Source: Methyloglobulus sp. (GTDB lineage: Bacteria > Pseudomonadota > Gammaproteobacteria > Methylococcales > Methylomonadaceae). Taken from it: DNA of 13,759 bases. The stretch covers positions 1 to 13,759 of the forward strand of contig JABFSV010000219.1 of assembly GCA_013140405.1 (NCBI GenBank). Direction: 5' to 3'. Of this stretch, positions 1 to 13,759 are shown piece by piece. A model generated the notes under the pieces. It was not told where the DNA came from. It saw nothing but the letters and a program-made list of their open reading frames with translations, and searched no databases. Every line of letters starts with the position of its first letter. The stretch's first letter is position 1. The position numbers and the translations under genes were made by a program.

Positions 1-1685
1 CATGAACCCAAGATGAAACCGAACAGGGCTATCAGTACCGATAAGATAACGCCGGTCTTGTTTGAGTTGATTTCAGCCAGTACCGGACTTAACAATCCTA
101 GCAAAAGCCCTAAAAATAGTAAAATGATGCCCATGTAACTCGGAGTCAAGCCGATAAACAGGTTTTTAATCAACGGTGTGAAAATTAGTAATCCTGGCAC
201 ACTGCCCAATAGCAAGATCATGAGAATGAATCGTGGATGGTTTTTGATGAAAGGCAATCTTGCTAAAATTAATGAAACCAACATGGCAAGCAAAGGCCAG
301 TAGAACAAAAAATTTGTCCCATTGTTGTATGTGAATAGTGCCATTAGCAACCAACAAACTGCAATTCCGAGAAAGAGTTCCGTGTTTGTTACCCATCTTT
401 TGATGACTAGGTAAGCACCACCGGATAATGCAATGTTTAAAAAAATAAATCCTAATAAATAACAGTAGCTATTGAATGTGTCGTCATAAGCGAACGTTTT
501 GTAATCTGGATGAAACGAGCGTATGACATACCAAAGGTAGCAATCTACCTTATACAAAGCAAAAATTAAAACAGGATAAGTCAATGTTGTGGTTAATAAA
601 GGTATTGGCCTGATTAACCTTGCTTTATAGTTGGCTACGCAGAGTGCTGCAAACAATGCCACCAACAATCCGCATAAGGCTATTGCCCAACTCATCGGGT
701 AATGAATAACGCCTAATCCGGGAAAATCGAAATAAATATGATTTTCAGCGTTTATGTTATCCAAGGGTTGATTACCAAAATGTTTGACCAACGCCAGCAT
801 AATTTCGCCTTCATGCTGTAAAGTGCCTTGATCTAAAAACTCTGGACGGTCTAGTTGTGTGTGATAGCTCTTGTGGCCTGCAATCGCGGCGAAATTCATC
901 CCAGGAATGCCCGCGCGTTTTAAAACGCTGAAATCGGTATCATTGGGTAAGCGTTTGTATACCTCATACATCAATGAATTGGTCATAACAAACGGCACAG
1001 CGGTGGCGAGTCCTTCGATAAGTTTGCCATTTCCCTCGCTGGTTTCAAACATCATGAATGCACCGCGATTGCCACGGTATTCAAAATTCAGCGCCATACC
1101 GATATTTTTTGCCCACGGATGTTGCTGCACAAAGGCTTCTGCACCGAGCAAGCCCATTTCTTCGCTATCGGTGAAAAGGCAAATTAAGTCATTTTGTAGT
1201 GTCTTGTGTGTTTTTAAGGCACTTAGCGTTTCCAGGATAGCCGCAACCGATGCACCGTCGTCGGCAGCGCCTGGACCGGTTTTTACCGAATCGTAATGGG
1301 CTGCAAGCAATAATGCCTTGCCGGGAGTGATTCCTTGTATTCTTGCCAATACATTATGGATTCTGCCGACCTGTTTTGTTTTCGGATTGACGACTAACGC
1401 TGATTGTATCTCCGGCTCAAGGCCTAATTCTTTAAGCTGGGTGAGCAAATATTTCCGAACATTTTCATTTTCAAGGCTGCCAGTCGGATGTGGATGCACT
1501 GCGATTTGCCGTACATGGGTCATGGCACGGGCTGAAGAAAATGTGGATTTGGGTGCGGAAAGCGAAGATTGGCTGGGTGGATAAGTGTGATAAATCCCTA
1601 TGCCTATCAGGGCCAACACACTGATAAGCAGAATAACACTGCATACTGGATTAATATGTTTTAGTGGTTGATGTTCATTTAGCAT
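1..1685 (-). CDS. M28-family membrane metallopeptidase, 3' end cut by window edge
   Basis: A zinc aminopeptidase-like protein with 561 complete codons visible; the C-terminus lies beyond base 1. Numbered from the ATG at 1685, a hydrophobic segment at about residues 14-33 anchors the N-terminus and a soluble M28 domain follows. All metal and catalytic positions of the family are visible: His130 in an AAHYDS motif, bridging Asp142 in ADDGAS, the Glu175-Glu176 pair in DSEEMG, Glu202 in NFEYRG (Asp in many relatives) and His275 in YHTQLD. From about residue 325 come roughly eight hydrophobic segments, giving a multi-pass C-terminal half like that of membrane M28 proteases of the yeast Pff1/FXNA type. 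The peptidase domain is inferred to face the periplasm. An in-frame ATG 24 bases upstream (1709), directly preceded by a stop codon, is an alternative start; neither start has a strong ribosome site. The gene points the same way as the oxoamine synthase, about 200 bp downstream of it. Its substrate is unknown. Confidence 0.9.
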   Translation of the reverse strand, partial: MLNEHQPLKHINPVCSVILLISVLALIGIGIYHTYPPSQSSLSAPKSTFSSARAMTHVRQIAVHPHPTGSLENENVRKYLLTQLKELGLEPEIQSALVVNPKTKQVGRIHNVLARIQGITPGKALLLAAHYDSVKTGPGAADDGASVAAILETLSALKTHKTLQNDLICLFTDSEEMGLLGAEAFVQQHPWAKNIGMALNFEYRGNRGAFMMFETSEGNGKLIEGLATAVPFVMTNSLMYEVYKRLPNDTDFSVLKRAGIPGMNFAAIAGHKSYHTQLDRPEFLDQGTLQHEGEIMLALVKHFGNQPLDNINAENHIYFDFPGLGVIHYPMSWAIALCGLLVALFAALCVANYKARLIRPIPLLTTTLTYPVLIFALYKVDCYLWYVIRSFHPDYKTFAYDDTFNSYCYLLGFIFLNIALSGGAYLVIKRWVTNTELFLGIAVCWLLMALFTYNNGTNFLFYWPLLAMLVSLILARLPFIKNHPRFILMILLLGSVPGLLIFTPLIKNLFIGLTPSYMGIILLFLGLLLGLLSPVLAEINSNKTGVILSVLIALFGFILGS

Positions 1686-1760
1686 CTTTACACCATAGCT
1701 ATTGGGCATTTACTCACAGAGCATTTCCTGATGAGCATGTTAGGAATAATGCTTAAGCCC

Positions 1761-1909: not shown

Positions 1910-3259
1910 TTAGAGTTTTTCGATTTCTTCAGCGGTCGCTTGAACAGTTTGCTGAATTTGTGCTTCGGTATGCTGGCAGGAAACAAAGAAACGCAGTCGC
2001 GCAGACTTTTCTGGTACCGCTGGATAGAGGATGGGCTGCACATTGATGCCGCGTTCGAACAATGCCGCAGATAAACGTGCCGCCCTGATTGAACTGCCGG
2101 TTATTGCAGGGATAACTGCCAAGCCTGTGCTGGTGCCGGTATCGATGCCGACCGCCCTGGCTTGTTCCAAGAAAAACTGCCCACGTTCTTGTAGTACGGT
2201 GACGCGTTCGGGTTCTTGTTGCATGTGCTTTAAGGCAGCCAATGACGCTGCGGCAAGTGGGGGAGACATGCCTACGCTATAGAGAAAACCTGGTGCGAGA
2301 AACTTCAGGTGTTCCACTAATGCCATTTCTCCGGCTATATATCCACCACAGCCCGCAAGGGTTTTGCTCAGCGTTCCCATCCAAATGTCTACGCTTCCGC
2401 CTTCGAGGTCGAAGTGTTCGCGGATACCTAGGCCAGTCTTGCCCATCACCCCGAACGAATGGGCTTCATCGACCATCAGGAAGGTTTTGTATTTATTTTT
2501 GATCTCTACAAATCGAGGTAAGTTGGGGTAGTCACCATCCATGCTATAAATGCCTTCTAGGACAATGAGTACCCGTTCAAAGTGATGGCGTTGTGCCGCG
2601 AGTAACTTATCCAGCGCAGCCCAATCATTGTGGGGGAAAGGCAGCCGTCTGGCACCTGAAAGAGTTATCCCTTGCAAGATGCTGTTATGAACCAGTTCGT
2701 CGTGCAGGATAAGGTCTTTCGAACCAAACAAATAGCCGATGGTAGTGACATTAGTGGCGTGTCCGCTAACTAATACAATAGCGTCGTCCACGCCATAGAC
2801 CTTGGCGATAGCCTGCTCCAGCTCACGATGGAGAGGGCGCTCACCAGACACAAGACGGCTTGCAGAAACGGATGTGCCATAGCAGTCGATAGCTCTTTTA
2901 GCGGCTTCAGCAATATCGGGGTGACCAGAAAGCCCAAGATAATTGTAACTAGCGTAGTTGATGTATTCACGGCCTCCAATTTGTGTGGTCGCACCAGCAA
3001 TGCCTTCGTGTAATTTGAAGAAAGGGTTGCCTATACCTAGCCTTGCCGCACCATCGTTAATGATGCGGATTTGCTGATAGCCTGGATGTAACTGAAAACG
3101 GTAATGTTGCTCTGGAATGTTGGTCGCACTGCTAGACGATTGGACAGGTATTTCTGTGTCATTTACTTGTTCGGTTTGTCTAAGCCTGCGTTCAAGAGCC
3201 TGTTGTATGAGCTTGTCTTTGATTTGGGCGGTAAGCCCAGGTAGTCCTTTTCGAGACAT
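1910..3259 (-). CDS. PLP-dependent alpha-oxoamine synthase (RkpG/WcbT-like), acyl-chain release enzyme
   Basis: A 449-residue fold-type I aminotransferase-like enzyme of the family of 8-amino-7-oxononanoate synthase, glycine C-acetyltransferase, 5-aminolevulinate synthase and serine palmitoyltransferase. These enzymes condense an amino acid with an acyl thioester, lose CO2 and give an alpha-amino ketone. Visible residues are Lys299 in GTLSKT (Schiff-base lysine), Asp264 and His267 in VDEAHSFG, His191 in the HNSI segment (ring-stacking position) and the glycine-rich stretch after Lys299. The family core is about 390 residues; here it is preceded by about 55-60 extra, partly helical and polar residues. 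The ATG sits one base after the synthase stop codon with no convincing ribosome site, so the two are probably one operon with coupled translation. The context implies that the acyl donor is the chain on the synthase ACP. The family is certain; the amino acid partner (glycine, alanine, serine or another) cannot be read. Pairings of this type occur in RkpA/RkpG, WcbR/WcbT and fungal Fum1/Fum8. Confidence 0.92.
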   Translation of the reverse strand: MSRKGLPGLTAQIKDKLIQQALERRLRQTEQVNDTEIPVQSSSSATNIPEQHYRFQLHPGYQQIRIINDGAARLGIGNPFFKLHEGIAGATTQIGGREYINYASYNYLGLSGHPDIAEAAKRAIDCYGTSVSASRLVSGERPLHRELEQAIAKVYGVDDAIVLVSGHATNVTTIGYLFGSKDLILHDELVHNSILQGITLSGARRLPFPHNDWAALDKLLAAQRHHFERVLIVLEGIYSMDGDYPNLPRFVEIKNKYKTFLMVDEAHSFGVMGKTGLGIREHFDLEGGSVDIWMGTLSKTLAGCGGYIAGEMALVEHLKFLAPGFLYSVGMSPPLAAASLAALKHMQQEPERVTVLQERGQFFLEQARAVGIDTGTSTGLAVIPAITGSSIRAARLSAALFERGINVQPILYPAVPEKSARLRFFVSCQHTEAQIQQTVQATAEEIEKL

Positions 3260-3260
3260 T

Positions 3261-6200
3261 CTAATGGATCATTCTATTGGTTGATGTGGAGTTTTTGGAC
3301 TGAATTTCCTCTGTTAGGTTAGAGATAGCCTCGACAGAAGCCACAATGCCATGTTGGGAGGCTACTTGTGCTACGTGGGCAAGTGTCGTTTGTTCTTCAG
3401 ATGAAGTTTCAATTGCATCATTTCCTCTCAGTTGTTGAATGATACGCTCTGCCAATTTCGTGATGGTGGGACTTTGGCTTAAAGCCATGACCGGCAACCG
3501 CGTACCAAAACGCGATTCGAGGGCAACAACAAGCTCAACTCCCATAAGGGAATCTAAACCCATGTCATAAATCGACCGCGTAGGGTCAATTTTGTCTGGG
3601 GAGACTCTAAGGATTTCGCCAACTTCGCTTTTGAGCATATCAATCAATGTTGTTAATAATTCAGCGTCCGAGAGTTCCGACAGCATGCTTTGGATATCGT
3701 CGAAACTGTCATTATCCTCATTATTGTCGCCAATATTCCGCGTTAGCTCACTGAATTTTGGTGTTAACGCACTCGGCAAGAAGCGGGAAAGTGCCTTCCA
3801 GTCAAGATCCATCACGCCAAGGCTCGAACAGTCCGCGACCAACATACTCTCAAGGGCATCCAGGGCTATAGCAGAGTTGATTGCCGATCCACCCATGCGG
3901 TTTTGCAAAGCGTCTTTGATTTTTTCGTTGCGTGCCAGAAATCCCACATCGTCAATTGCGCCCCAGCTCACACAAGTTGCAACTAAACCGCTAGAGCGGC
4001 GGTGCTTAGCCAAGGCTTCAAGGTAAGCATTGGCGGCTACATAGTTGCCTTGGCCAGGGTTGCCAAATAGGGTGGTGGCCGATGAGAAAAGGATAAATAA
4101 ATCAAGCGGCATGTTGAGAGTCAATTCATGCAAGTTTTGCGCGCCTACTATTTTAGGCGCAAGTACGCTACGGATTTGGTCTGCATCCATATTGCGTATC
4201 AGTCCATCATTTATGACTGTGGCAGCATGTACGATACCTTTGAGGGGCGGCATTTCCTTGGCTATTTTGTTTAGCAGCAGTGCAATAGCGTTTTTATCAG
4301 TAACATCGCATGAAACCGCGAGAACAGCTACCCCCTGTTGTTCTAGTTGGTTGATGGCGGTTATGGCTTCTTCGGAGGCAGGCCCGCTACGGCTGATTAA
4401 AACGAGATGACGAGCGCCTTTGCTGGCGAGCCATTCCGCAGTTTTAAGGCCAAAACCGCCTAAACCGCCTGTCACCAAATAAGACGCATCTGAAGAAAGC
4501 ACTAAAGGCTTTTGGGTAGTAATAGTTGGCTTATGGACATGGCTAATGCCATTCCGATAAGTTACGACTATTTTCCCGATCTGACGTGCTTGCTGCATAT
4601 AACGGAAAGCATCAACAATATTCTCAGCTTCGAAGACATGATAGGGCAAAGGATGTAGTACGCCTTCGCTAAACAATGTCATCAGTTCCGAAAACAAGCT
4701 ACGGGTGAGTTCAGGATGAACTTGCATCAGTTGGTCGGCATCAATGCCAAAGTAGCTGATATTGTTGCGGAAAGGGCGTAGCCCTAGTTTAGTGTTTTCG
4801 TAGAAATCGCGTTTGCCAAGCTCAAGAAAACGACCGAAAGGCTTAAGTACCTTGAAGTTACGGATCATGGCTTCCCCAGCAAGGGAATTAAGCACGACAT
4901 CGACACCTTTTCCATCGGTTTGAGCCAGGATTTCATCAGCAAAAGCCAACGAGCGGGAGTCAAAAATACGATTGACACCCAATAGCCGCAAAAAGTCGCG
5001 CTTTTCATCAGACCCAGCCGTAACGTAGATTTCGGCACCAATCCATTTTGCCAGTTGGATAGCCGCTATGCCTACACCACCTGCCGCACCATGGATTAGC
5101 ACTTTTTCGCCTGGTTGCAACCGTGCCAGATGGTGCAGGGCATAATAAACCGTGAAAAAAGTGCTGGGAATGGTTGCTGCCGCCTCAAAGGAGATTCCGG
5201 GCGGAATATGTGAGATTGCGCTGGCTTGGGTGATGACCTGGTTGGCAAAACTGGAAGAACCGAAACCTACGACTTGTTCCCCAGGTGCAAATCCCTTTAC
5301 TTTATTGCCTGCGCTTTGCACAACACCAGAAAACTCAAGACCTAACGTTGGGCCAGCGAAACCATTTTCGATAGCTTCATCAGAAAGCAAGCCAAGGGCG
5401 TACATGACATCACGGAAATTCAGGCCGGTAGCATGGACTTTAACCACAACTTCATCATCTGTTGGGGAAGGATTTGGATGGGCCTCCCATCGTAGATTAC
5501 GTAATTGACCGGAGATTTGGAAACCCAGGCATATCCTTGGGTTTTCGTCATGGTGTTCGTCGATCTGTGGTCTTGGTTCAAGGCGAAGGCGTGGTGCATA
5601 TCGTGCGCCATGACGGGTAAGAATGATTTCTTGTTCGTCGTCAGGCACATCGAATTCTTTGTCCAAAGCGGTAGCGACAGTTTCAATCGTTAAAATATCT
5701 TCTAAATCGACCAAACGGACATTAAAGTTTGAAGCCTCATTGATCAATGTGCGGCCAAATCCCCATAGTGCAGCATCTATTGGGATTGCGGTTGGGTTCG
5801 GAGTGCCGACGGAAATGCGTTGAGGGAGCAGGTCAGTTGCAGCACCTGATGTGATTAGCCAGCAAGTTGTATTTGTCTCTGTCGTTTCACACGCTTGAAT
5901 AATGTTAGCAGCAGTGGCGCATCGAGCTACCTGCTGGTTCAAGATGGTTTCTGCTTCGGTATTGGTTGGGTAAGGTGAGAGGCCTGCTATGTGCACAATG
6001 CCGTCGAGCAGCCCATAACTGGCGGTAGTGTCGAGCAACAAGGATTCAATATCGGCGGTATCGCCAGGGTAGGCCTGTACGACGAGATCCCCTCTTGCCT
6101 GCAATTTCATCGTTAAGCGATCAGATAACTGTGCAGAGTAACCGCTTTGGTCTGCGAACAAAATCCAACTGCGTGGCATGGCCTTACTTGATGGAATTGT

Positions 6201-9200
6201 CGATAAAGCCCTCTCAGCTTGTTGGGCAAGCAGCAAATAAGGGCCAGAGAGGGTGTCTGGGGATAGTTCAAAGGTGATGGCATCGGAAAAATCAAGTTGC
6301 TGCAATTGCAGTTGCCAGAACTGTGCAGTATGTTGATTTGATATCCACGCGCCACTTTCCGAAGCCGACCAATGCTCGAGTTGCCCACCAAAAACAAAGT
6401 CGATCCAGCGTGAAGGATGTTGTCCGATGACGATAAGTGAGCCGCCCTCCGTGAGGCTGGCACGAGCATACTCAAGTGCTGATAAGGCTTCGCTAAGAGT
6501 GCTGAAATCAAGTGTGACGATGGCAATCTGGCAATTGGGCGCTATATCAGGTTGCTGTATAGTGGCATCAATTAGGCAAGTATTTATGGCAGGAAAAGTT
6601 TCTTTGATCCGTACCGTTTCTTCAAGTGTCGTCGGTGATGTGCTGGCAAAAATATAATCACAGTTCACAAAATCCATGGATAGACAGATATCCATGATAA
6701 ATGAAGGTGAACCTTTGCTAATTTCCGTAATGCTAAGACGACGGCCTTCGGGCAATTTGCTTAGCCCCTGAATAATCAAATCTCGAAGAACCCAGCCAAT
6801 TTTCTGTTTACCCTTAGCGCCAAGTACCTGACGTGTCAGGGTTTCCATTGATGACTCTTGAGGGCAGAGTTGATCGAGAATTAAGCTCCCATCCAGGAGT
6901 GAATTAAGGTGCATCCCGATACGTCCTACGGAATGTATTATCTGAAAATAATCAGGGTAATCGGCAACCAGAATATTCCAAATATCTTGGGCTGAGGCTT
7001 GATCATCTTGGATTGGCAAAACTTTCCAGCCGTCATTGATCGGCATTAAGGCTTGATCATCCTGCGCTCTGGACAATAGATGCTCAAGGAACGGAATAAT
7101 TTCAGGGTTAGCTGTCTTACAGTCCAGGATTTTTTGGGAACAAAGCGTTTCACCATCCGTTATCAGAAGTTGTAGTGCCTGACGAGTAAACTGGCTGCAC
7201 AGGCTATCGAGCAAGGGATCCACTTCCTCCGAGTAGGAACGATAAGAACCTTTGAGTGCGGCACGTCTTGCCAGTTCGGTAATGGCTGAATGAACGTGTT
7301 CAAAGCGAATAATCGGCGTAGCGTTAAATGTTAAAACGTGAGGCTTTGGAATGCTGTGATAATTTAAAAAATGCAAATTATCAGCCGCATTTTTACTGAG
7401 CCGAACGCTGCGGAAGCGAACTTCATTGGCTATGGCTATAGGTATTCCATCGGTGTCAAAGACAGTAAATTCAGCAGTCAATGAGTGCGTGGTTCGACGC
7501 AGAAGTGTGGCGTGGGCAATTCCTGGTTTCGCATTGCTGGATTGAAAAGCGATTCGCCCTATCTTAATGGGGACAAAAGTAAAACCAACGTGGGCATCCA
7601 GCTCATTTTTCAACAATTGGATAATGAGCTGGAAGGTACAATCCAATAGGGCAGGGTGGAGATGGGTATGTTCCAGTTCATCTTCAATGCTTTCTGGTAT
7701 CTTAAAAACAGCTAGTGCAGAATTATCTTCAACCCATCCATAATCAATACACTGGAACGCTGGGCCGTAAGAAAGTCCAGCAGCAATGGTAAGCGCTTCA
7801 TGGCTAGTGCAACTGAAATCAGGAAGACGTGTAGGTAATACAGGCATTTCTTGCCGCAGCAAAATATCACGGGGTTCCCGCAAAACACGAGCCACTGCGT
7901 GCAAAGCCCAGGGTTCTGCGCTGACATATTCCCTGCCTTTGATAGTTAAACTGCCATCTCGAGGGTCGATGCTTAAGCGTATAAGTTTGCTGTGATCTTC
8001 AGTTAATAACAATGGGGAGACTATTTCAAGTTCCTCTATTTCGGCTAAGTCACCAGGATTCCAGGCTAACGTGGCTGCCACGACGAGTTCGAAAAAACCC
8101 GTACCAGGAAATACGGTTGCTCCCCCGACCACATGATCAGCCAATGAGGGGTTAAGTTTTGTGTCGAGCTGGTTTTCCCATGTAAGTTCATGTTGTTGGA
8201 GTGGATAACCCAATAGAGGGTGAATTTTACGTCGATCAAGCAAGCCTATGGATTCTGATGTCACAGGATGCCAATGGCGTTCGCGCTGCCAGGGATAGTT
8301 TGGCAATTTAACGAATTTCCCTTGAACCGGAAAGAAATGTTGCCAATTAACACGCGCTCCGGCGATAACTGCTTGGCTGTATGCGGCCCAAATTTTTTGA
8401 GAGCTATCGTCACCACGGGCAAGTGTAGGAATGACACGGCTTTCTATAGCCAAGTCTTTCACGCAATCATTTATATAGCTGCGTAAAACGGGATGTGGGC
8501 CGATTTCGACGAATATATTGATGCCGTCTTCTTGGCTATTCTTGATTGCTTGCTCAAACAATACAGGCTTACGGATGTTATGCCACCAGTATTTTGCGTT
8601 GAGTTCGGAGCCATTAAGCAACCCGCCTGTTACTGTGGAATAGTATGGGACTACCGTATCAACTGGATTTAACTTTGCCAACGTTTGCTTTAAGTTGACT
8701 TCGATTTCGTCCATAGCTGGGCTGTGAAATGCGTAGTCAAGTTCGAGTCGCCTATTGAAAATATTGTGCTGGTTTAGGTTTGACTCAAGCTGGGTGAGCG
8801 ATTTTGAGCTGCCGGCAATTGTCACGCCTTTGGAACTATTGATTCCCGCAATGACAAGCGATGTCTCAAGATTCAGTTCTTCCAGTAGTTTTTGAATGGC
8901 CTCCTGACCTAAGCCCACTGCGGTCATATTGCCTTTGCCTTTGGTTGTTCCTTGCTGATGGCTACGGTGGAAGATAACTTTGACCGCATCTTCAAGCGTT
9001 AATGCGCCTGATGCCCATGCTGCGGCTACTTCACCAACACTATGCCCCGCCACGGCTAATGGCATGATACCCAGATTCCGTAACATGTTTGTGATTCCGA
9101 CCTGAAGGGCAAACAGGGCAGGTTGTGCAATTTCAGTATGCTCGTAGCGGTTTTCGCCATTTTTGCCAGCCAATTCATCTTCAAGCGAGTAATCGGCATA

Positions 9201-10898
9201 GCGATTGAAAATGGCATCAATTTCCCGGATGGTATCCCTGAACACCGGTTCTTCTAATAGGCGCTTGCCCATGCCAGCCCATTGGGAGCCATTGCCCGAA
9301 TAGATAAAGGCGGGGCCTGAAGGTTCATGCAATCCGATTCCAGCCTCTACCGGAGATTGCACAAGCTCATCAGATGTAAAATTGAGCAATGCCTTGGTAG
9401 TCGCTTTTGCTGTCGAACTGCATACGATTGCTCGGTGTTCATGCCATTCGCGTTGAAAAACGGAGCCATAGGCAATGTCGTAAAGCGGGGTTTCAGGGTG
9501 TTCTTTTAAAAAGTCAGAAAGCTCTTGAGCCGCTTGTTTCAGCGCGGTGTTGTCTTTTGCCGAGAGGATTATAGGCAGTATGGGTGTTTTGGAAAGTTTT
9601 GATGCCTTTGTTTTCGGCTGTTCATGACTTTCCAGGATGACATGGGCGTTAGCGCCACCGAAACCGAAGGAATTGACACCTACAATAAGTTTTCCGGTTT
9701 TTTTGAGTGGTTTGTTTTCGGTGACAACTTTAATGTTCCAGTCATCGAATTGGATATTAGGGTTGGGCGTTTTAATGCCAATAGTTGCGGGCACCAGCCG
9801 ATGTTGGATACAGCTCAATGCTTTTACAAGTCCCGCTACGCCGGAGGCCGCTTCGAGATGTCCAAGATTGCTCTTTACGGAGCCAATAAGGAGCGGCTTG
9901 TTTTTGCTACGGCGCTTGCCGAGTGCATTACCGATGGCATGTGCTTCAATCGGGTCACCGACCGCAGTTCCGGTGCCGTGGGCTTCAATATAATCAATAG
10001 CAGACGGGTCAATACCAGCCTGGGCATACGTGTGTTCTAGCAGGGCGGCTTGCACTTTTGGGTTGGGCACTGTTATGCCGGATTTGCGGCCATCCGTGTT
10101 AATCGCAGAATTTGCAACCACAGCCACTATCGGGTTGCCGTCGGCTATCGCCTGATCGTAATCCTTAAGGAAAAATATGCCGCCGCCTTCGGATCGCACA
10201 TAACCATCCCCGGATGCATCGAATACATTGCATCGTCCACGCCGCGACAGCATAGATGCTTTGGAGAAGGTAATGAATCCATAGGGATGTATATGCAGAC
10301 TAACGCCACCCGCTAACGCCTGGCTGCTTTCGCCCGAAAGAATTGATTGGCAGGCTTGGTGGAATGCCACCATGGATGACGAGCAGGCGGTATCTAACGC
10401 CATACTGGGGCCACGCAAGTCAAGGACATAGGATATGCGGTTGGCTGCAATGCTTGATGTGTTGCCGGTGGCGACAGAAGACTCAACAGCAGTGAGATCG
10501 TCGGCTAACCGATAAGCATAGTCAGCACTGGCGATACCAATAAAGACACCACACTGGCTACCACGAATACTGGATGGCTTGATTCCCGAATTCTCCAATG
10601 CTTCCCAGCTCATTTCGAGCAGCAATCGTTGTTGCGGATCCATCAGGGCGGCTTCCCGTGGGGAAATGCCAAAAAAGCCCGCATCGAATTTTGTAATATC
10701 TCCGATAGAACCCGCCGCAAAGGTATAGCTTGTTCCTGGGTGGTTTTTATTTGGATGGAGAAAGCTGTTTTTCGCCCACCGTTGAGGATCGACTTCGGTC
10801 ACTAAATCTCGACCATCTAGTAGATCTTGCCAATACTGGTTGGTATTCGTACCTGGGAATCTAAAGGAAAACCCAGTGATTGCAACTCGCCTTGTCAT
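3261..10898 (-). CDS. fully reducing type I polyketide / fatty-acid synthase without thioesterase (RkpA/WcbR-like)
   Basis: A 2545-residue iterative-type multienzyme with animal-FAS order. KS spans about 1-425 (Cys172 in DTACSSS, His307 in HGTGT, His347 in NLGH). AT spans about 530-830 (Ser620 in GHSVGE, His725 in YAFHSP; the Phe of YAFH and the Val after Ser suggest malonyl-CoA). DH spans about 890-1165 (His922 and Pro931 in HxxxGxxxxP; Asp1086 and Gln1090 in DCTFQ). A region at about 1215-1570 sits where C-methyltransferases lie but lacks the SAM glycine motif. A structural KR covers about 1575-1775. ER spans about 1790-2115 (LNFRDV, HGAAGGVG). KR spans about 2135-2315 (TGGLGGFG; Ser2272/2273, Tyr2286, Asn2290; an IND triplet in place of LDD suggests a B-type KR). 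ACP spans about 2415-2490 (Ser2450 in GLDSL). A polar tail of about 55 residues ends the protein with no thioesterase. All catalytic sites for a saturated acyl chain are intact. I chose the ATG at 10898; an in-frame TTG at 10913 is possible, but neither has a clear ribosome site. The oxoamine synthase gene follows after one base. Confidence 0.95.
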   Translation of the reverse strand: MTRRVAITGFSFRFPGTNTNQYWQDLLDGRDLVTEVDPQRWAKNSFLHPNKNHPGTSYTFAAGSIGDITKFDAGFFGISPREAALMDPQQRLLLEMSWEALENSGIKPSSIRGSQCGVFIGIASADYAYRLADDLTAVESSVATGNTSSIAANRISYVLDLRGPSMALDTACSSSMVAFHQACQSILSGESSQALAGGVSLHIHPYGFITFSKASMLSRRGRCNVFDASGDGYVRSEGGGIFFLKDYDQAIADGNPIVAVVANSAINTDGRKSGITVPNPKVQAALLEHTYAQAGIDPSAIDYIEAHGTGTAVGDPIEAHAIGNALGKRRSKNKPLLIGSVKSNLGHLEAASGVAGLVKALSCIQHRLVPATIGIKTPNPNIQFDDWNIKVVTENKPLKKTGKLIVGVNSFGFGGANAHVILESHEQPKTKASKLSKTPILPIILSAKDNTALKQAAQELSDFLKEHPETPLYDIAYGSVFQREWHEHRAIVCSSTAKATTKALLNFTSDELVQSPVEAGIGLHEPSGPAFIYSGNGSQWAGMGKRLLEEPVFRDTIREIDAIFNRYADYSLEDELAGKNGENRYEHTEIAQPALFALQVGITNMLRNLGIMPLAVAGHSVGEVAAAWASGALTLEDAVKVIFHRSHQQGTTKGKGNMTAVGLGQEAIQKLLEELNLETSLVIAGINSSKGVTIAGSSKSLTQLESNLNQHNIFNRRLELDYAFHSPAMDEIEVNLKQTLAKLNPVDTVVPYYSTVTGGLLNGSELNAKYWWHNIRKPVLFEQAIKNSQEDGINIFVEIGPHPVLRSYINDCVKDLAIESRVIPTLARGDDSSQKIWAAYSQAVIAGARVNWQHFFPVQGKFVKLPNYPWQRERHWHPVTSESIGLLDRRKIHPLLGYPLQQHELTWENQLDTKLNPSLADHVVGGATVFPGTGFFELVVAATLAWNPGDLAEIEELEIVSPLLLTEDHSKLIRLSIDPRDGSLTIKGREYVSAEPWALHAVARVLREPRDILLRQEMPVLPTRLPDFSCTSHEALTIAAGLSYGPAFQCIDYGWVEDNSALAVFKIPESIEDELEHTHLHPALLDCTFQLIIQLLKNELDAHVGFTFVPIKIGRIAFQSSNAKPGIAHATLLRRTTHSLTAEFTVFDTDGIPIAIANEVRFRSVRLSKNAADNLHFLNYHSIPKPHVLTFNATPIIRFEHVHSAITELARRAALKGSYRSYSEEVDPLLDSLCSQFTRQALQLLITDGETLCSQKILDCKTANPEIIPFLEHLLSRAQDDQALMPINDGWKVLPIQDDQASAQDIWNILVADYPDYFQIIHSVGRIGMHLNSLLDGSLILDQLCPQESSMETLTRQVLGAKGKQKIGWVLRDLIIQGLSKLPEGRRLSITEISKGSPSFIMDICLSMDFVNCDYIFASTSPTTLEETVRIKETFPAINTCLIDATIQQPDIAPNCQIAIVTLDFSTLSEALSALEYARASLTEGGSLIVIGQHPSRWIDFVFGGQLEHWSASESGAWISNQHTAQFWQLQLQQLDFSDAITFELSPDTLSGPYLLLAQQAERALSTIPSSKAMPRSWILFADQSGYSAQLSDRLTMKLQARGDLVVQAYPGDTADIESLLLDTTASYGLLDGIVHIAGLSPYPTNTEAETILNQQVARCATAANIIQACETTETNTTCWLITSGAATDLLPQRISVGTPNPTAIPIDAALWGFGRTLINEASNFNVRLVDLEDILTIETVATALDKEFDVPDDEQEIILTRHGARYAPRLRLEPRPQIDEHHDENPRICLGFQISGQLRNLRWEAHPNPSPTDDEVVVKVHATGLNFRDVMYALGLLSDEAIENGFAGPTLGLEFSGVVQSAGNKVKGFAPGEQVVGFGSSSFANQVITQASAISHIPPGISFEAAATIPSTFFTVYYALHHLARLQPGEKVLIHGAAGGVGIAAIQLAKWIGAEIYVTAGSDEKRDFLRLLGVNRIFDSRSLAFADEILAQTDGKGVDVVLNSLAGEAMIRNFKVLKPFGRFLELGKRDFYENTKLGLRPFRNNISYFGIDADQLMQVHPELTRSLFSELMTLFSEGVLHPLPYHVFEAENIVDAFRYMQQARQIGKIVVTYRNGISHVHKPTITTQKPLVLSSDASYLVTGGLGGFGLKTAEWLASKGARHLVLISRSGPASEEAITAINQLEQQGVAVLAVSCDVTDKNAIALLLNKIAKEMPPLKGIVHAATVINDGLIRNMDADQIRSVLAPKIVGAQNLHELTLNMPLDLFILFSSATTLFGNPGQGNYVAANAYLEALAKHRRSSGLVATCVSWGAIDDVGFLARNEKIKDALQNRMGGSAINSAIALDALESMLVADCSSLGVMDLDWKALSRFLPSALTPKFSELTRNIGDNNEDNDSFDDIQSMLSELSDAELLTTLIDMLKSEVGEILRVSPDKIDPTRSIYDMGLDSLMGVELVVALESRFGTRLPVMALSQSPTITKLAERIIQQLRGNDAIETSSEEQTTLAHVAQVASQHGIVASVEAISNLTEEIQSKNSTSTNRMIH
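6995..7061. repeat. 13-bp direct repeat inside the synthase gene
   Basis: AGGCTTGATCATC occurs at 6995-7007 and 7049-7061, offset by 54 bases, which is 18 codons. Both copies are in frame and encode a QDDQA pentapeptide in the degenerate methyltransferase region. Most likely a trace of local duplication in a weakly constrained linker, or chance. Confidence 0.5.
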
Positions 10899-10958
10899 TG
10901 TTTTTGAATTCAATATTTTGTATTACATGTTTGGATACACCAAGATTTACCTGTCTCC

Positions 10959-11298: not shown

Positions 11299-11359
11299 CA
11301 GGGATTGTCACAGTCAGGTTACAGGGATGCAAGCGGTATTTGCAAATTAATTTTTCGTG

Positions 11360-11365
11360 AAGGAG
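11360..11365 (+). promoter_or_regulatory. strong ribosome binding site that selects a TTG start
   Basis: AAGGAG lies six bases before a TTG at 11372. An in-frame GTG at 11357 overlaps this site and has no ribosome site of its own, so the TTG is the more likely start of the kinase. Confidence 0.7.
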
Positions 11366-11371
11366 TCTTTT

Positions 11372-12268
11372 TTGGAAATTAATCCAGTAGAAGTCGATGT
11401 TCTTTGTGTAGGACATGCCTCGTATGATCTCGTTTATTCTGTGCCACATCATCCTAAAGAAGATGAAAAAATGGTCGCCGATAGTTTTATAAGCTGTGGC
11501 GGTGGGCCTGCCGCGAATGCGGCGGTGATGGTTGCAAAATTGGGTTTGAAGTCAGCGTTTGTGGGCTATTTGGGGCATGATCTTTACGGGGAAATGCACT
11601 GTCAGGAGCTACGTGGCAACAAAGTTGTCATTGATAGGGTCGTTCGAGGGTCGTCACCCACGCCGCTCTCGATGGTATTGGTAAAGCCCGATGGCAAACA
11701 TGCATTAATCAATTACAAAGGTGAAACCAAGCCCTTGCCTGAAAATGCGGTAAATTTTTCAGCGCTTAAAGCCAACGTTATCTTGTTCGACGGTCATGAA
11801 CCACATATTTCCATACCGTTGGCAAAGGCAGCCAAAGCGCAGGGCATACCGACAGTGCTGGATGCAGGTTCCGTGCATGAGGGTACGTTAGCTTTGATGG
11901 ATAAAGTTGATTATTTGGTTTGTTCGGAAAAGTTTGCCTTACAACTGGCAGGGGACGAAGAAACTGCCCTGGGTCGTATGGCAGAAATATCACCTAATGT
12001 ACTGATTACACTGGGAGAAAGAGGGCTAATCTGGCAACAAGGCGCAAGGCGTGGTTCATTGCCTGCATTTTCTGTGACTGTTGTCGATACCACTGGGGCG
12101 GGGGATGCTTTTCATGGCGCTTTTGCGGGGGCAGTGGCGTTAGGTATGCCGTGGGATGAAGTGTTACGCTATGCCAGCGTGGCAGGTGCGCTTTGTTGTA
12201 CGAAAGTGGGGGCTCGTCATGGCTTACCCACCTATCAAGAGCATTGGAATTTATTCAAGCAGAATTAA
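11372..12268 (+). CDS. PfkB/ribokinase-family sugar kinase
   Basis: A 298-residue ATP-dependent carbohydrate or nucleoside kinase of the PfkB family, near the usual length of about 300. Counted from the TTG at 11372, the N-terminal substrate region has GHASYDL (Asp19). The first family signature is a glycine-rich CGGGPAANAA segment at about 42-51. The second signature is DTTGAGDAF at about 239-247, with the catalytic base Asp245 in the anion-hole GAGD. The GARHGLPT ending and the overall style recall the sulfofructose kinase/ketohexokinase branch, but I cannot name the substrate. The start is set by AAGGAG six bases upstream of the TTG; a GTG start at 11357 would add five residues. The gene diverges from the synthase operon and converges with the GNAT gene, so it is probably a single-gene unit. 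Nothing ties it to the synthase apart from the shared upstream region. Confidence 0.9.
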   Translation: MEINPVEVDVLCVGHASYDLVYSVPHHPKEDEKMVADSFISCGGGPAANAAVMVAKLGLKSAFVGYLGHDLYGEMHCQELRGNKVVIDRVVRGSSPTPLSMVLVKPDGKHALINYKGETKPLPENAVNFSALKANVILFDGHEPHISIPLAKAAKAQGIPTVLDAGSVHEGTLALMDKVDYLVCSEKFALQLAGDEETALGRMAEISPNVLITLGERGLIWQQGARRGSLPAFSVTVVDTTGAGDAFHGAFAGAVALGMPWDEVLRYASVAGALCCTKVGARHGLPTYQEHWNLFKQN

Positions 12269-12287: not shown

Positions 12288-12310
12288 ATCTGAAAATCAA
12301 GGGTTCAGAT
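12288..12310. terminator. hairpin between convergent genes
   Basis: ATCTGAA (12288-12294) and TTCAGAT (12304-12310) form a perfect 7-bp stem with a 9-base loop, in the 41-base gap between two convergent stop codons. It could serve both directions, but no T-tract follows on either strand, so termination is uncertain. Confidence 0.35.
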
Positions 12311-13269
12311 TATAAACCCAGTGTCCGAAATTCAGTGCAAGGGCGACACCGTTGCCAAATACTGTCGAAGTTTTCAGAAAGTTGCCGATTGCGGGAAGGC
12401 AAGGTTGGGCTCCAAACACCACGATAATAACCGCTTTGTTGACGGAACAAATAACCGTCACGGTCATTGACCAGATACGCAGATGGATATTGCAGGTCAT
12501 CAGGCTCAACAGGCGACCGCAATAAAAATGCAGAGGGCAATCGTTGCACCAAATCAATCAACGGATGCGGTTGGCTGCGAACTGCCAGCGTATCTTGCAG
12601 AATAATCAATATGTTGCCGCCGTTGCTGCTAATGGCAAATTGTTTAAGCGCTTCCACAACTTCATCTTGCCCAAATAATACGCGTTCCAAGTCTGGAGTG
12701 TAGATGCAGATTTGCCGCCGCGCTTTGGTTATGAGCTGTAGTGTTGCGGCTAGCGTATCTTCCAGCGTCGTAAATTCGCTGATTTCTACTAACTCATCAC
12801 GCAGTTTTGGGGCAGGGCGGTTGGATTTAATGATAGGTTCTAACTGTAACCTCATGGTTTGATGAGGGATATTGGCCTCCATGAATACAGCGCCTTCTTT
12901 AGCGAAACCGAATTTTTCATAAAACCCTAATACCTCAGTTTGTGCATTAAGCGTCAATTCAGTCCAACCCAGTTTACGTGCCTTATCCAGAACGGCTAAC
13001 AATAATGCCTTACCTACTCCTTTTCCACGCCAGCTTGCCAAAACTGCCATGCGTCCTAGTTTATGGTCAGGTGTCAATCTGGCTGCACCAATGGCTTCAT
13101 GCTGGTCATCACGGGCGATAAAGTGATAACAAACTGGATCGACGCTATCAGATTCAATTGCTTCCGGTATGTTTTGCTCGACAATAAATACGGCTTCCCG
13201 CACAGCGTGGAGGTCATCAAAATCGGCTTTATAATCGGCAGGTTCAACGCGGAAGTTGGAGATATTCAT
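12310..13269 (-). CDS. GNAT N-acetyltransferase with C-terminal phospholipase-D-like (DUF7931-type) domain
   Basis: A 319-residue two-domain protein. Residues 1 to about 147 form a GNAT acetyltransferase. The acetyl-CoA pyrophosphate loop RGKGVG is at 81-86, preceded by the GRMAV strand, and a YEKFGF motif near 117-122 closes the fold. The VFIVEQ start region resembles the YjcF/ElaA subgroup. Residues from about 155 to the end form a second domain with alternating beta strands and helices, including an ICIYTPDLE segment and a QPHPLIDLVQRL segment. It resembles a non-catalytic phospholipase-D-like fold such as DUF7931, an assignment made from memory of family style. The ATG at 13269 has GGA seven bases upstream; an in-frame TTG at 13281 would add four residues but is less likely. 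The acetyl acceptor is unknown. The gene converges with the kinase and shows no link to the synthase. Confidence 0.85.
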   Translation of the reverse strand: MNISNFRVEPADYKADFDDLHAVREAVFIVEQNIPEAIESDSVDPVCYHFIARDDQHEAIGAARLTPDHKLGRMAVLASWRGKGVGKALLLAVLDKARKLGWTELTLNAQTEVLGFYEKFGFAKEGAVFMEANIPHQTMRLQLEPIIKSNRPAPKLRDELVEISEFTTLEDTLAATLQLITKARRQICIYTPDLERVLFGQDEVVEALKQFAISSNGGNILIILQDTLAVRSQPHPLIDLVQRLPSAFLLRSPVEPDDLQYPSAYLVNDRDGYLFRQQSGYYRGVWSPTLPSRNRQLSENFDSIWQRCRPCTEFRTLGL

Positions 13270-13759
13270 AGTGGAATCCAATAGTTGCAGGTTCTTTGAT
13301 GTCAGCCTGATTGTTATAACTGTGATTGAAAATGGTAACTGCCATTAAGAATATAGCCTGTTTATTCCCGTTTTGTGAAGGCCTTAAAACCGAATGCCCA
13401 AAATTTATGGCGGATCCGTACCCGATTTAAAATCAACGGACAAACCCGGTTATCTGAATGGAGCTTGAGCCAATTGTCATGTTTACCACCTTATGGATTT
13501 AAATGTGCAAGGGATTACACGAGAAGACTGGCTTTCATTCCTCCGCTAAATCACTATAGGTTCAAAACACTAGGGCATTAACCTTAGTCGAAAACGGTGC
13601 TGTTTTATCCATATATGATCAATGTTGGATCGCTCAGGCGTATCAATAGTCTTGAGTAAAGTTACAACCTGCTAACCCTTTAAAACTTCATTTTGCAGCG
13701 TTAATTCAATCCAAAATCAGTCTTTTTTTATCGCTTGCATTAAGTAATTTAGATAGCAA
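13270..13759. other. non-coding right flank
   Basis: About 490 bp upstream of the GNAT gene. Short open frames exist on both strands, but none has a ribosome site or recognisable protein content. A TATAAC (minus strand, near 13314-13319) could be a -10 for the GNAT gene but lacks a good -35. No RNA gene or repeat is recognised. Confidence 0.5.

Follow-up and report, generated by a model that had tools for sequence, protein, structure and literature searches.

A polyketide synthase–oxoamine synthase pair from a Methyloglobulus draft genome as a probable sphingoid-base synthase serving capsule assembly

Introduction

What does a fully reducing polyketide synthase make when it lacks a domain to release its product, and what is that product for? 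The question is raised by two adjacent genes in a 13,759-nucleotide stretch of DNA from the methanotroph Methyloglobulus sp. (GenBank assembly GCA_013140405.1, contig JABFSV010000219.1; hereafter the window), which is the whole of one contig (C205) of a 3.39-Mb draft genome in 545 contigs that is 90.6% complete. Open reading frame (ORF) calling places an iterative type I polyketide synthase (PKS) and a pyridoxal phosphate (PLP)-dependent alpha-oxoamine synthase (AOS) on the minus strand, separated by a single base (position 3260). A previous reading of the window from its sequence only, here called the sequence-only reading, had proposed that the two proteins, akin to RkpA/RkpG of rhizobia and WcbR/WcbT of Burkholderia, make a saturated long-chain alpha-amino ketone, and had added that their role may differ from those cases as no capsule genes are in view. 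We regard it as probable, from sequence comparison and analogy, that the two proteins form a sphingoid-base synthase of the SgaAB type whose lipid serves a capsule pathway of the ABC-transporter type; taken separately, sphingoid-base synthesis is very likely, by analogy with characterised homologues, and service to a capsule is likely.

The characterised homologues are SgaA and SgaB of Pseudomonas fluorescens MYb115, both required for very-long-chain (C24–C28) sphinganines, with SgaB showing serine palmitoyltransferase (SPT) activity that condenses serine with acyl-CoAs and accepting virtually no other amino acid (Peters et al. 2025, PMC12134224, cited here and below from part of its text). 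The same source describes compounds 154 Da heavier than the sphinganines, most likely phosphoglycerol sphingolipids, proposes the short-chain dehydrogenase/reductase (SDR) SgaC as the reductase, and reports 6,101 homologous clusters of the SgaAB type; a word search of its main text finds no mention of capsule, KpsS or lipoteichoic acid (LTA) synthase. In Escherichia coli, KpsS adds Kdo to (lyso-)phosphatidylglycerol (PMC7694667, in part), and KpsS and KpsC act at the cytoplasmic face (PMC7694667, PMC11041684, both in part). Within the parts of the open-licence literature covered we found no report that places a sphingolipid at the terminus of a Kps capsule, nor any for methanotrophs, and a 2025 review of capsule attachment (PMC12220298) does not mention sphingolipids, polyketides or rhizobia.

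Results

Identity of the pair

The synthase carries ketosynthase (KS), acyltransferase (AT), dehydratase (DH), enoylreductase (ER), ketoreductase (KR) and acyl carrier protein (ACP) domains, and its motifs, like those of the AOS, were located in the sequence by pattern: TACSSS (residue 175), EAHGTGT (310) and NLGHLEAA (349) in the KS, GHSVGE (623) and YAFHS (727), which we take to be the malonyl-type motif, in the AT, HVVGGATVFP (927) and HPALLD (1086) in the DH, GGVGIAA (1945) in the ER, LFSS (2275) and YVAANA (2291) in the KR, and GLDSL (2452) in the ACP. No thioesterase is found among the 17 Pfam families or the best 25 of 164 NCBIfam families matched by the protein, the rest of the genome not having been searched. 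ORFs, Pfam, NCBIfam and motifs thus agree with the sequence-only reading of a complete KS-AT-DH-ER-KR-ACP synthase without thioesterase one base from an AOS. Its account of the domains stands, except that it missed a relic C-methyltransferase between DH and ER (residues about 1264–1517), in which the S-adenosylmethionine (SAM) motif, LEIGAGTGG in CurJ, reads LSITEISKGSP and is lost. Given complete reducing domains and a relic methyltransferase, we would expect a fully reduced, unbranched chain built from malonyl units; a methylated chain was considered and rejected, as the methyltransferase region lacks the SAM motif. In two plasmids, from Planktothrix agardhii (locus L007, 5602–13200) and Streptomyces (L008, 8311–13134), the PKS and AOS are fused in a single protein.

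The AOS retains Lys299, DEAH (264) and HDELVHNS (186). Its best NCBIfam match by bits is bioF, at 336.6 against a cut-off of 426.45, and it also falls below the cut-offs for glycine C-acetyltransferase (KBL; 300.8 against 460 and 254.7 against 493) and for SPT (at best 292.2 against 640). Trees were built on subsets of 59 AOS rows, 49 KS-AT rows and 54 KpsS rows. In the first, 48 PKS-linked rows form one clade (100/100) apart from BioF, KBL and SPT rows, the two SPT rows falling outside it, and the window AOS lies with Pseudomonas SgaB-like proteins within a 27-row clade (98/84). In the KS-AT tree the window PKS lies with Pseudomonas SgaA-like proteins in a 30-row clade (100/99), nested in a 43-row clade (100/100) that also contains RkpA- and WcbR-like rows. 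Long-branch warnings were raised for own_L002, Ecoli_BioF, Ecoli_Kbl and L031 in the AOS tree and for L007, L008 and L068 in the KS-AT tree.

Matches to E. coli BioA, B, C and D are absent from the window at E 1e-6. A closed relative (genome G028) has a typical bioF above the cut-off (486.9 bits) in a bioB-F-H-C-D run, separate from its PKS-linked AOS; the draft to which the window belongs, at 90.6% completeness, yielded no BioF, and the second AOS-family gene of that draft (contig C396), which is KBL-like and lies beside an epimerase-type dehydrogenase, is placed beside E. coli Kbl in the tree. We rejected BioF and KBL as identities on account of the tree, the scores below the NCBIfam thresholds and the bio locus that G028 keeps apart. 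These sequence criteria separate the AOS from BioF, KBL and canonical SPT, and the pair is a member of the already known SgaAB/RkpAG/WcbRT kind. The kinship proposed by the sequence-only reading is therefore seen in both trees, which, together with analogy to SgaAB, also favour the saturated alpha-amino ketone and sphingoid-like chemistry that it predicted. Two outcomes that it had listed as damaging, release by a thioesterase and an AOS clustering with BioF or KBL, did not appear: the domain searches of the synthase gave no thioesterase, and the AOS stands apart from both families. The pair itself adds a Methylococcales methanotroph to an already large family of PKS-AOS clusters; the order is deduced from the closest named AOS homologue, which comes from Methyloglobulus, a genus of the Methylococcaceae. 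Another PKS-AOS subtype occurs in the order, in G086, G128 and G153 (L065, L067, L068), with a shorter PKS (2123–2136 residues), an AOS 46–56% identical, no match to PF05159 (the KpsC/KpsS family) and a separate position in the KS-AT tree.

Comparison with known systems

SgaA and SgaB are represented in the trees by Pseudomonas proteins tied to sgaA by a primer match rather than by those of MYb115 itself: the 22-base forward primer for MYb115 sgaA fits the beginning of the PKS gene without mismatch in L092 (P. putida 31753) and with two mismatches in L096 (P. paraversuta). As in the window, these are two genes for a reducing iterative PKS and an AOS, and the window pair groups with them in both trees, at about 68–70% identity for the AOS and 57–59% for KS-AT; unlike in these loci, the pair in the window lies apart from SDR, LTA-like and Kps genes. 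The gene order in L092 is PKS, AOS, PhyH, KpsC-like, GNAT, LTA-like, SDR, KpsS, KpsC, and in L096 PKS, AOS, PhyH, KpsC-like, GNAT, a shortened LTA-like match, KpsC. Locus tags usually step by five. Those of MYb115 are RS19805 for the PKS, RS19800 for the AOS and RS19775 for the SDR (PMC12134224). Room would thus be left for four genes between AOS and SDR, as in L092, and the MYb115 sphinganine cluster probably sits in a capsule locus.

In Sinorhizobium meliloti (L006) the order is PKS-AOS-SDR-LTA-like-KpsS, positions that we take to be rkpA, G, H, I and J. The RkpA/RkpG pair, included in both trees, is 49% (AOS) and 38% (KS-AT) identical to that of the window and forms a separate subclade, and the S. 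meliloti LTA-like protein is only 25% identical to the one encoded in the Methyloglobulus draft. Loci of the WcbR/WcbT type, from Paraburkholderia, Caballeronia, Burkholderia lata and Ralstonia (we assume the wcb names for the Burkholderia-type gene order), likewise join PKS and AOS with an LTA-like gene, and with an SDR where the flank reaches; they differ in having an LpxC-like deacetylase between PKS and AOS, and form their own clades in both trees (100/100 for AOS, 100/99 for KS-AT). In fungal Fum1/Fum8 and in the sphingofungin PKS/aminoacyl transferase system, an AOS releases the PKS chain (PMC12134224, in part); these systems were compared outside the trees, SphA being a weak match in the PDB sequence search (E 1e-21).

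Three further features of these loci stand out. The LpxC-like deacetylase (L004, 11040–11954; L161, 16468–17379) perhaps strips an N-acyl or N-acetyl group from the lipid. A phytanoyl-CoA dioxygenase-like (PhyH) gene beside the pair in Pseudomonas loci L003 (13402–14445), L092, L096 and L099 could encode a lipid or sugar hydroxylase. In L003 (Pseudomonas sp. TMW 2.1634) the pair, LTA-like, SDR, KpsS and KpsC genes lie on a plasmid, pL21564-1, typed as mobilizable, which offers a route for horizontal spread.

Capsule genes in the same genome and beside the pair in relatives

The suggestion that the pair may have a different role for want of capsule genes does not hold once the rest of the draft is considered, as other contigs carry genes for KpsS, KpsC, an SDR and an LTA-like protein, and in several relatives such genes stand beside the pair. 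Two contigs (C109 and C318), which overlap by 116 identical end bases, encode a GT4 glycosyltransferase, an SDR, an LTA-synthase-like protein and part of an export protein, together with a KpsC of half length (347 residues) and a KpsS (409 residues) that scores 278.5 bits where the NCBIfam KpsS family requires 600. The SDR, a putative KDS reductase, is split at the overlap and is 59% identical to that of L003. Homologues of PKS, AOS, SDR, LTA-like protein and KpsS, the RkpA-J/WcbO-T set, are thus all present in the window's own genome. Half-length KpsC with a single glycosyltransferase domain (339–347 residues) is also seen in G100 and G126 (L041, 1522–2565; L044, 9741–10784; L050, 10395–11414 for the three genomes), compared with 681–684 residues in G158 and G102, and could mean a shorter or simpler Kdo linker.

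A PKS-AOS-KpsS-SDR-LTA run is found in six genomes (G032, G028, G078, G082, G158 and G072), PKS-AOS-KpsS-SDR at a contig end in G108, and KpsC-KpsS-SDR-LTA-PKS-AOS in G210. We also examined the best 80 loci of a scan in named organisms, with 10-kb flanks and neighbours found by tblastn; 59 are at least 19 kb long, and coverage reaches about 2.4 kb upstream of the PKS. Among the 59 the PKS is present in 57, an LTA-like gene in 36, SDR in 33, KpsS in 26 and KpsC in 16; LTA-like and SDR genes occur together in 32, at least one of SDR, LTA-like, KpsS and KpsC in 43, and a capsule-type gene of any kind, if laxer matches to export and chain-length proteins are counted, in 52. As pair and order recur across many genomes, the PKS-AOS arrangement is not a matter of chance.

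Co-occurrence across genomes

We surveyed 161 Methylococcales genomes, the window's own included, and 398 genomes across the phylum. In the order, where AOS-positive means an identity of at least 47% (other matches listed are at most 39%), 21 genomes have the AOS and 21 have PF05159 at E<1e-20, with 18 common to both: PF05159 is found in 18 of 21 AOS-positive and 3 of 140 AOS-negative genomes (Fisher P 5e-18, in a test that ignores shared ancestry, as does that for the phylum), and seven further genomes have PF05159 matches that are no more than weak. The SDR homologue (E<1e-50) occurs in 15 genomes and the LTA-like gene (at least 37% identity) in 11, all of them within the 18. In the phylum, with an AOS cut of 540 bits, PF05159 at E 1e-20 is present in 14 of 17 AOS genomes and 45 of 381 others (P 3e-10); matches of 380–540 bits (G482, G201, G351, G347, G227, G505 and G317) were set apart after the list had been seen. 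For the 62 phylum genomes with AOS or Kps, the LTA-like gene is in 12 of 17 AOS genomes against 4 of 45 with Kps only, and the SDR (E<1e-44) in 13 of 17 against none of 45.

The KpsS tree comprises 54 KpsS-type domains, 31 rows from 29 pair-bearing genomes or records and 23 rows without the pair; it left out PKS-positive L046, L055, L059 and L066, took 20 of the 45 Kps-only phylum genomes together with G046, G075 and G109, and used for phylum rows the best PF05159 match, whether KpsS or KpsC. All 31 pair-bearing rows fall in one 34-row group (97/90). The other three rows there, G463, G487 and G477 (L162, L199 and L200), are Kps-only genomes with no PKS-AOS match above 540 bits and with an LTA-like gene at most about 2 kb from that for PF05159; in G463 and G487 the AOS-family gene that scores best is BioF-like, narrowly missing the cut-off (408 against 426 bits). 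A fourth Kps-only genome with an LTA-like match (G467; partial, E 5e-25, on a different contig from its PF05159 gene) lies outside the group on a long branch. The tree needs 2 label changes, where shuffled labels need 17.7 and none of 500 shuffles comes as low, a result helped by near-copies and shared ancestry. Since the pair-bearing rows group with three Kps-only genomes that have the LTA-like gene, the simplest reading of the sequences is that this KpsS clade recognises the product of the LTA-like transferase. Across Pseudomonadota the AOS tends to be accompanied by an SDR, a phosphoglycerol-transferase-like enzyme and KpsS of one particular clade.

The LTA-synthase-like transferase

The closest PDB sequences to the draft's own LTA-like protein are the phosphoglycerol transferase GacH and the lipoteichoic acid primase LtaP, and its model (mean pLDDT 77) matches LtaP, GacH and LtaS and also the MCR-1/EptA phosphoethanolamine transferases. 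All 43 homologues retain Thr272, Glu230, His390, Asp453 and His454; from alignment to GacH we take the first to be the catalytic residue and the others metal ligands. The fold does not settle between a glycerol and an ethanolamine head group, and phosphoglycerol would fit the lipid of Peters et al.

Charges in the non-membrane segments bear on the orientation of the enzyme. In ten homologues K+R to D+E are 33 to 3 in loop 1, 28 to 41 in loop 3 and 5 to 15 in loop 4, with a neutral stretch after helix 5 (24 to 22). For all 43 homologues the N-termini, whose starts were chosen mechanically, sum to 85 K+R to 35 D+E, and in 36 of the 43 the K+R of loops 1 and 3 exceed those of the N-terminus and loops 2 and 4 combined. 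LtaS- and EptA-type enzymes act outside the cytoplasm. If loop 1 is cytoplasmic, the five membrane helices would place the catalytic domain in the cytoplasm, and the charge counts, which are mixed, hint at such an inverted transferase, unlike LtaS and EptA. As an observation in its own right, the pattern of positive loop 1 and negative loop 4 in the L053 protein (856–2412) and its homologues is unlike that of E. coli EptA, where positive charges lie at the N-terminus and in the loop preceding the last helix.

Discussion

These findings suggest the following pathway. The PKS would iteratively build a saturated very-long-chain acyl thioester, with a length like that implied by the C24–C28 sphinganines of SgaA, and leave it on the ACP. 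By homology, the AOS would condense this chain decarboxylatively with an amino acid, most likely L-serine as for SgaB, to give 3-ketosphinganine, and so free the PKS without a thioesterase. The SDR on C109/C318 would reduce the product to sphinganine, in line with the SgaC proposal of Peters et al., and synteny, co-occurrence and the KpsS tree suggest that the resulting lipid feeds the KpsS/KpsC capsule assembly encoded beside the SDR. More tentatively, and with somewhat less than even confidence, the anchor could be sphinganine carrying phosphoglycerol added by the LTA-like transferase, a look-alike of lyso-phosphatidylglycerol that the dedicated KpsS clade accepts when starting the Kdo linker. 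As in the E. coli group 2 capsule, KpsS and KpsC homologues are present in the genome of the pair; there, in contrast, the acceptor is a glycerophospholipid, and here we infer that phosphoglycerol-sphinganine would replace lyso-phosphatidylglycerol as anchor. Were the lipid to anchor a capsule, bacteria not counted as sphingolipid producers would be using sphingolipids for a defined structural purpose. The scheme, if true, would also give a testable structure for the lipid carrier suspected in rhizobial K-antigen synthesis, a candidate gene for the maker of the P. fluorescens phosphoglycerol sphingolipids, and a single account of the rkpA-G-H-I-J and wcb gene sets.

Several observations weigh against a sphingoid-base synthase in the service of a capsule. 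For the synthesis itself, the serine specificity and chain length of the window pair are ascribed by analogy, and the AOS model (mean pLDDT 80), which has the alpha-oxoamine synthase fold, matches ThAOS, KBL, SPT and BioF about equally. For the capsule, the pair lies on the window contig and the rest of the RkpA-J/WcbO-T set on C109/C318, not in one cluster, and its neighbours in the window are unrelated, non-capsule genes (an M28 peptidase, a pfkB kinase and a GNAT-DUF7931 protein); as these three have no tblastn match at E 1e-25 in 114 loci, the pair's local setting is its own. The flank of L096 has neither SDR nor KpsS within it. The partners are also unevenly kept: of the 18 order genomes with AOS and PF05159, three are without a strong SDR match and seven without the LTA-like gene, and several pair-bearing genomes of the KpsS group (G033, G070, G102, G123, G327, G422 and G425, for example) show no LTA-like match of this type. 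PKS and AOS occur without PF05159 in G086, G128 and G153, but with a different PKS subtype, and in the phylum three AOS genomes (G484, G172 and G329) lack PF05159 at E<1e-20; lowering the phylum AOS cut to 380 bits reduces the association to 15 of 24, and the Fisher tests take no account of shared ancestry. The weak point of the scheme is one of location: LtaS and EptA act outside the cytoplasm, KpsS and KpsC at its face, and under the scheme the transferase would, unusually, work on the cytoplasmic side.

The alternative that survives best, though we hold it unlikely, is that the pathway ends in a free sphingoid lipid such as phosphoglycerol sphinganine, kept in the membrane or secreted, and that its closeness to capsule genes reflects shared cell-surface islands. 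P. fluorescens MYb115 indeed accumulates free sphinganines and most likely phosphoglycerol sphingolipids, with effects on a host (PMC12134224); G484 has an SDR-LTA-PKS-LpxC-like-AOS-GNAT run in a genome with no PF05159 match at E<1e-20, and 33 of the 59 long named loci have no KpsS inside the 10-kb flank, the flanks being short on the PKS side. Yet an end product of this kind would leave unexplained why 31 of 31 sampled pair-bearing KpsS rows share one clade, in which the three pair-less rows have the LTA-like gene, and why in several loci the genes for KpsS, the SDR and the LTA-like protein are neighbours. It also sits poorly with a 2016 review (PMC4881576, in part) which assigns to the rkp-1 products both the synthesis and the modification of a specific lipid carrier used in secreting K-antigen, and which mentions K-polysaccharide (KPS)-deficient rkp-1 mutants.

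It is less probable still, and we would give it little weight, that the AOS uses alanine or glycine and yields a 1-deoxysphinganine-like product or amino ketone without the 1-hydroxyl, to which no phosphoglycerol head group could then be added there. AOS enzymes differ in their choice of amino acid, and this choice is not readable from the AOS sequence. Against this, the genome has, next to its SDR, a gene for an enzyme resembling phosphoglycerol transferases, and the virtually exclusive preference for serine was measured on SgaB, whose likely relatives lie in the clade of the window AOS (PMC12134224). The notion that the AOS is simply the genome's BioF or KBL beside an unrelated PKS draws on bioF being the best NCBIfam match, if below its cut-off, and on the lack of a separate BioF in the draft, and is highly improbable and already largely refuted by the AOS tree, the separate bioF of the G028 bio run, the draft's own KBL-like second paralogue and the PKS that accompanies the AOS in 57 of the 59 long loci.

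Organisation of the window

The features of the window are collected in Table 1. A scan for terminators and promoters 3′ of the AOS gave nothing useful. The synthase begins at a TTG codon in our calling, giving 2550 residues, and an alternative ATG at 10898, where the sequence-only reading had ended the gene, would give 2545.

Table 1. Features of the window, with positions counted from its first base
Feature	Position	Strand	Residues	Basis or remark
Iterative type I PKS, fatty acid synthase (FAS)-like, of SgaA/RkpA/WcbR type	3261..10913	minus	2550 aa	ORF, Pfam, NCBIfam, KS-AT tree
KS domain with C-terminal extension	9429..10892	minus	8–495	Pfam; Cys-His-His motifs present
AT domain	8364..9308	minus	536–850	Pfam; GHSVGE, YAFHS
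DH domain	7401..8222	minus	898–1171	Pfam and motifs
Relic C-methyltransferase region	6363..7124	minus	about 1264–1517	CurJ CMeT match, E 3e-7
ER domain	4563..5459	minus	about 1819–2117	Pfam and motif
KR domain	3951..4487	minus	2143–2321	Pfam and motifs
ACP domain	3441..3635	minus	2427–2491	Pfam; GLDSL
PLP-dependent AOS, SgaB/RkpG/WcbT type	1910..3259	minus	449 aa	PLP lysine K299 at 2363–2365
M28 peptidase	3–1709			neighbour; continues off the contig
pfkB-type kinase	11357–12268			neighbour
GNAT acetyltransferase fused to DUF7931 (domain of unknown function)	12310–13281			neighbour

The closest named homologue of the AOS, at 98% identity, is from a Methyloglobulus metagenome genome.

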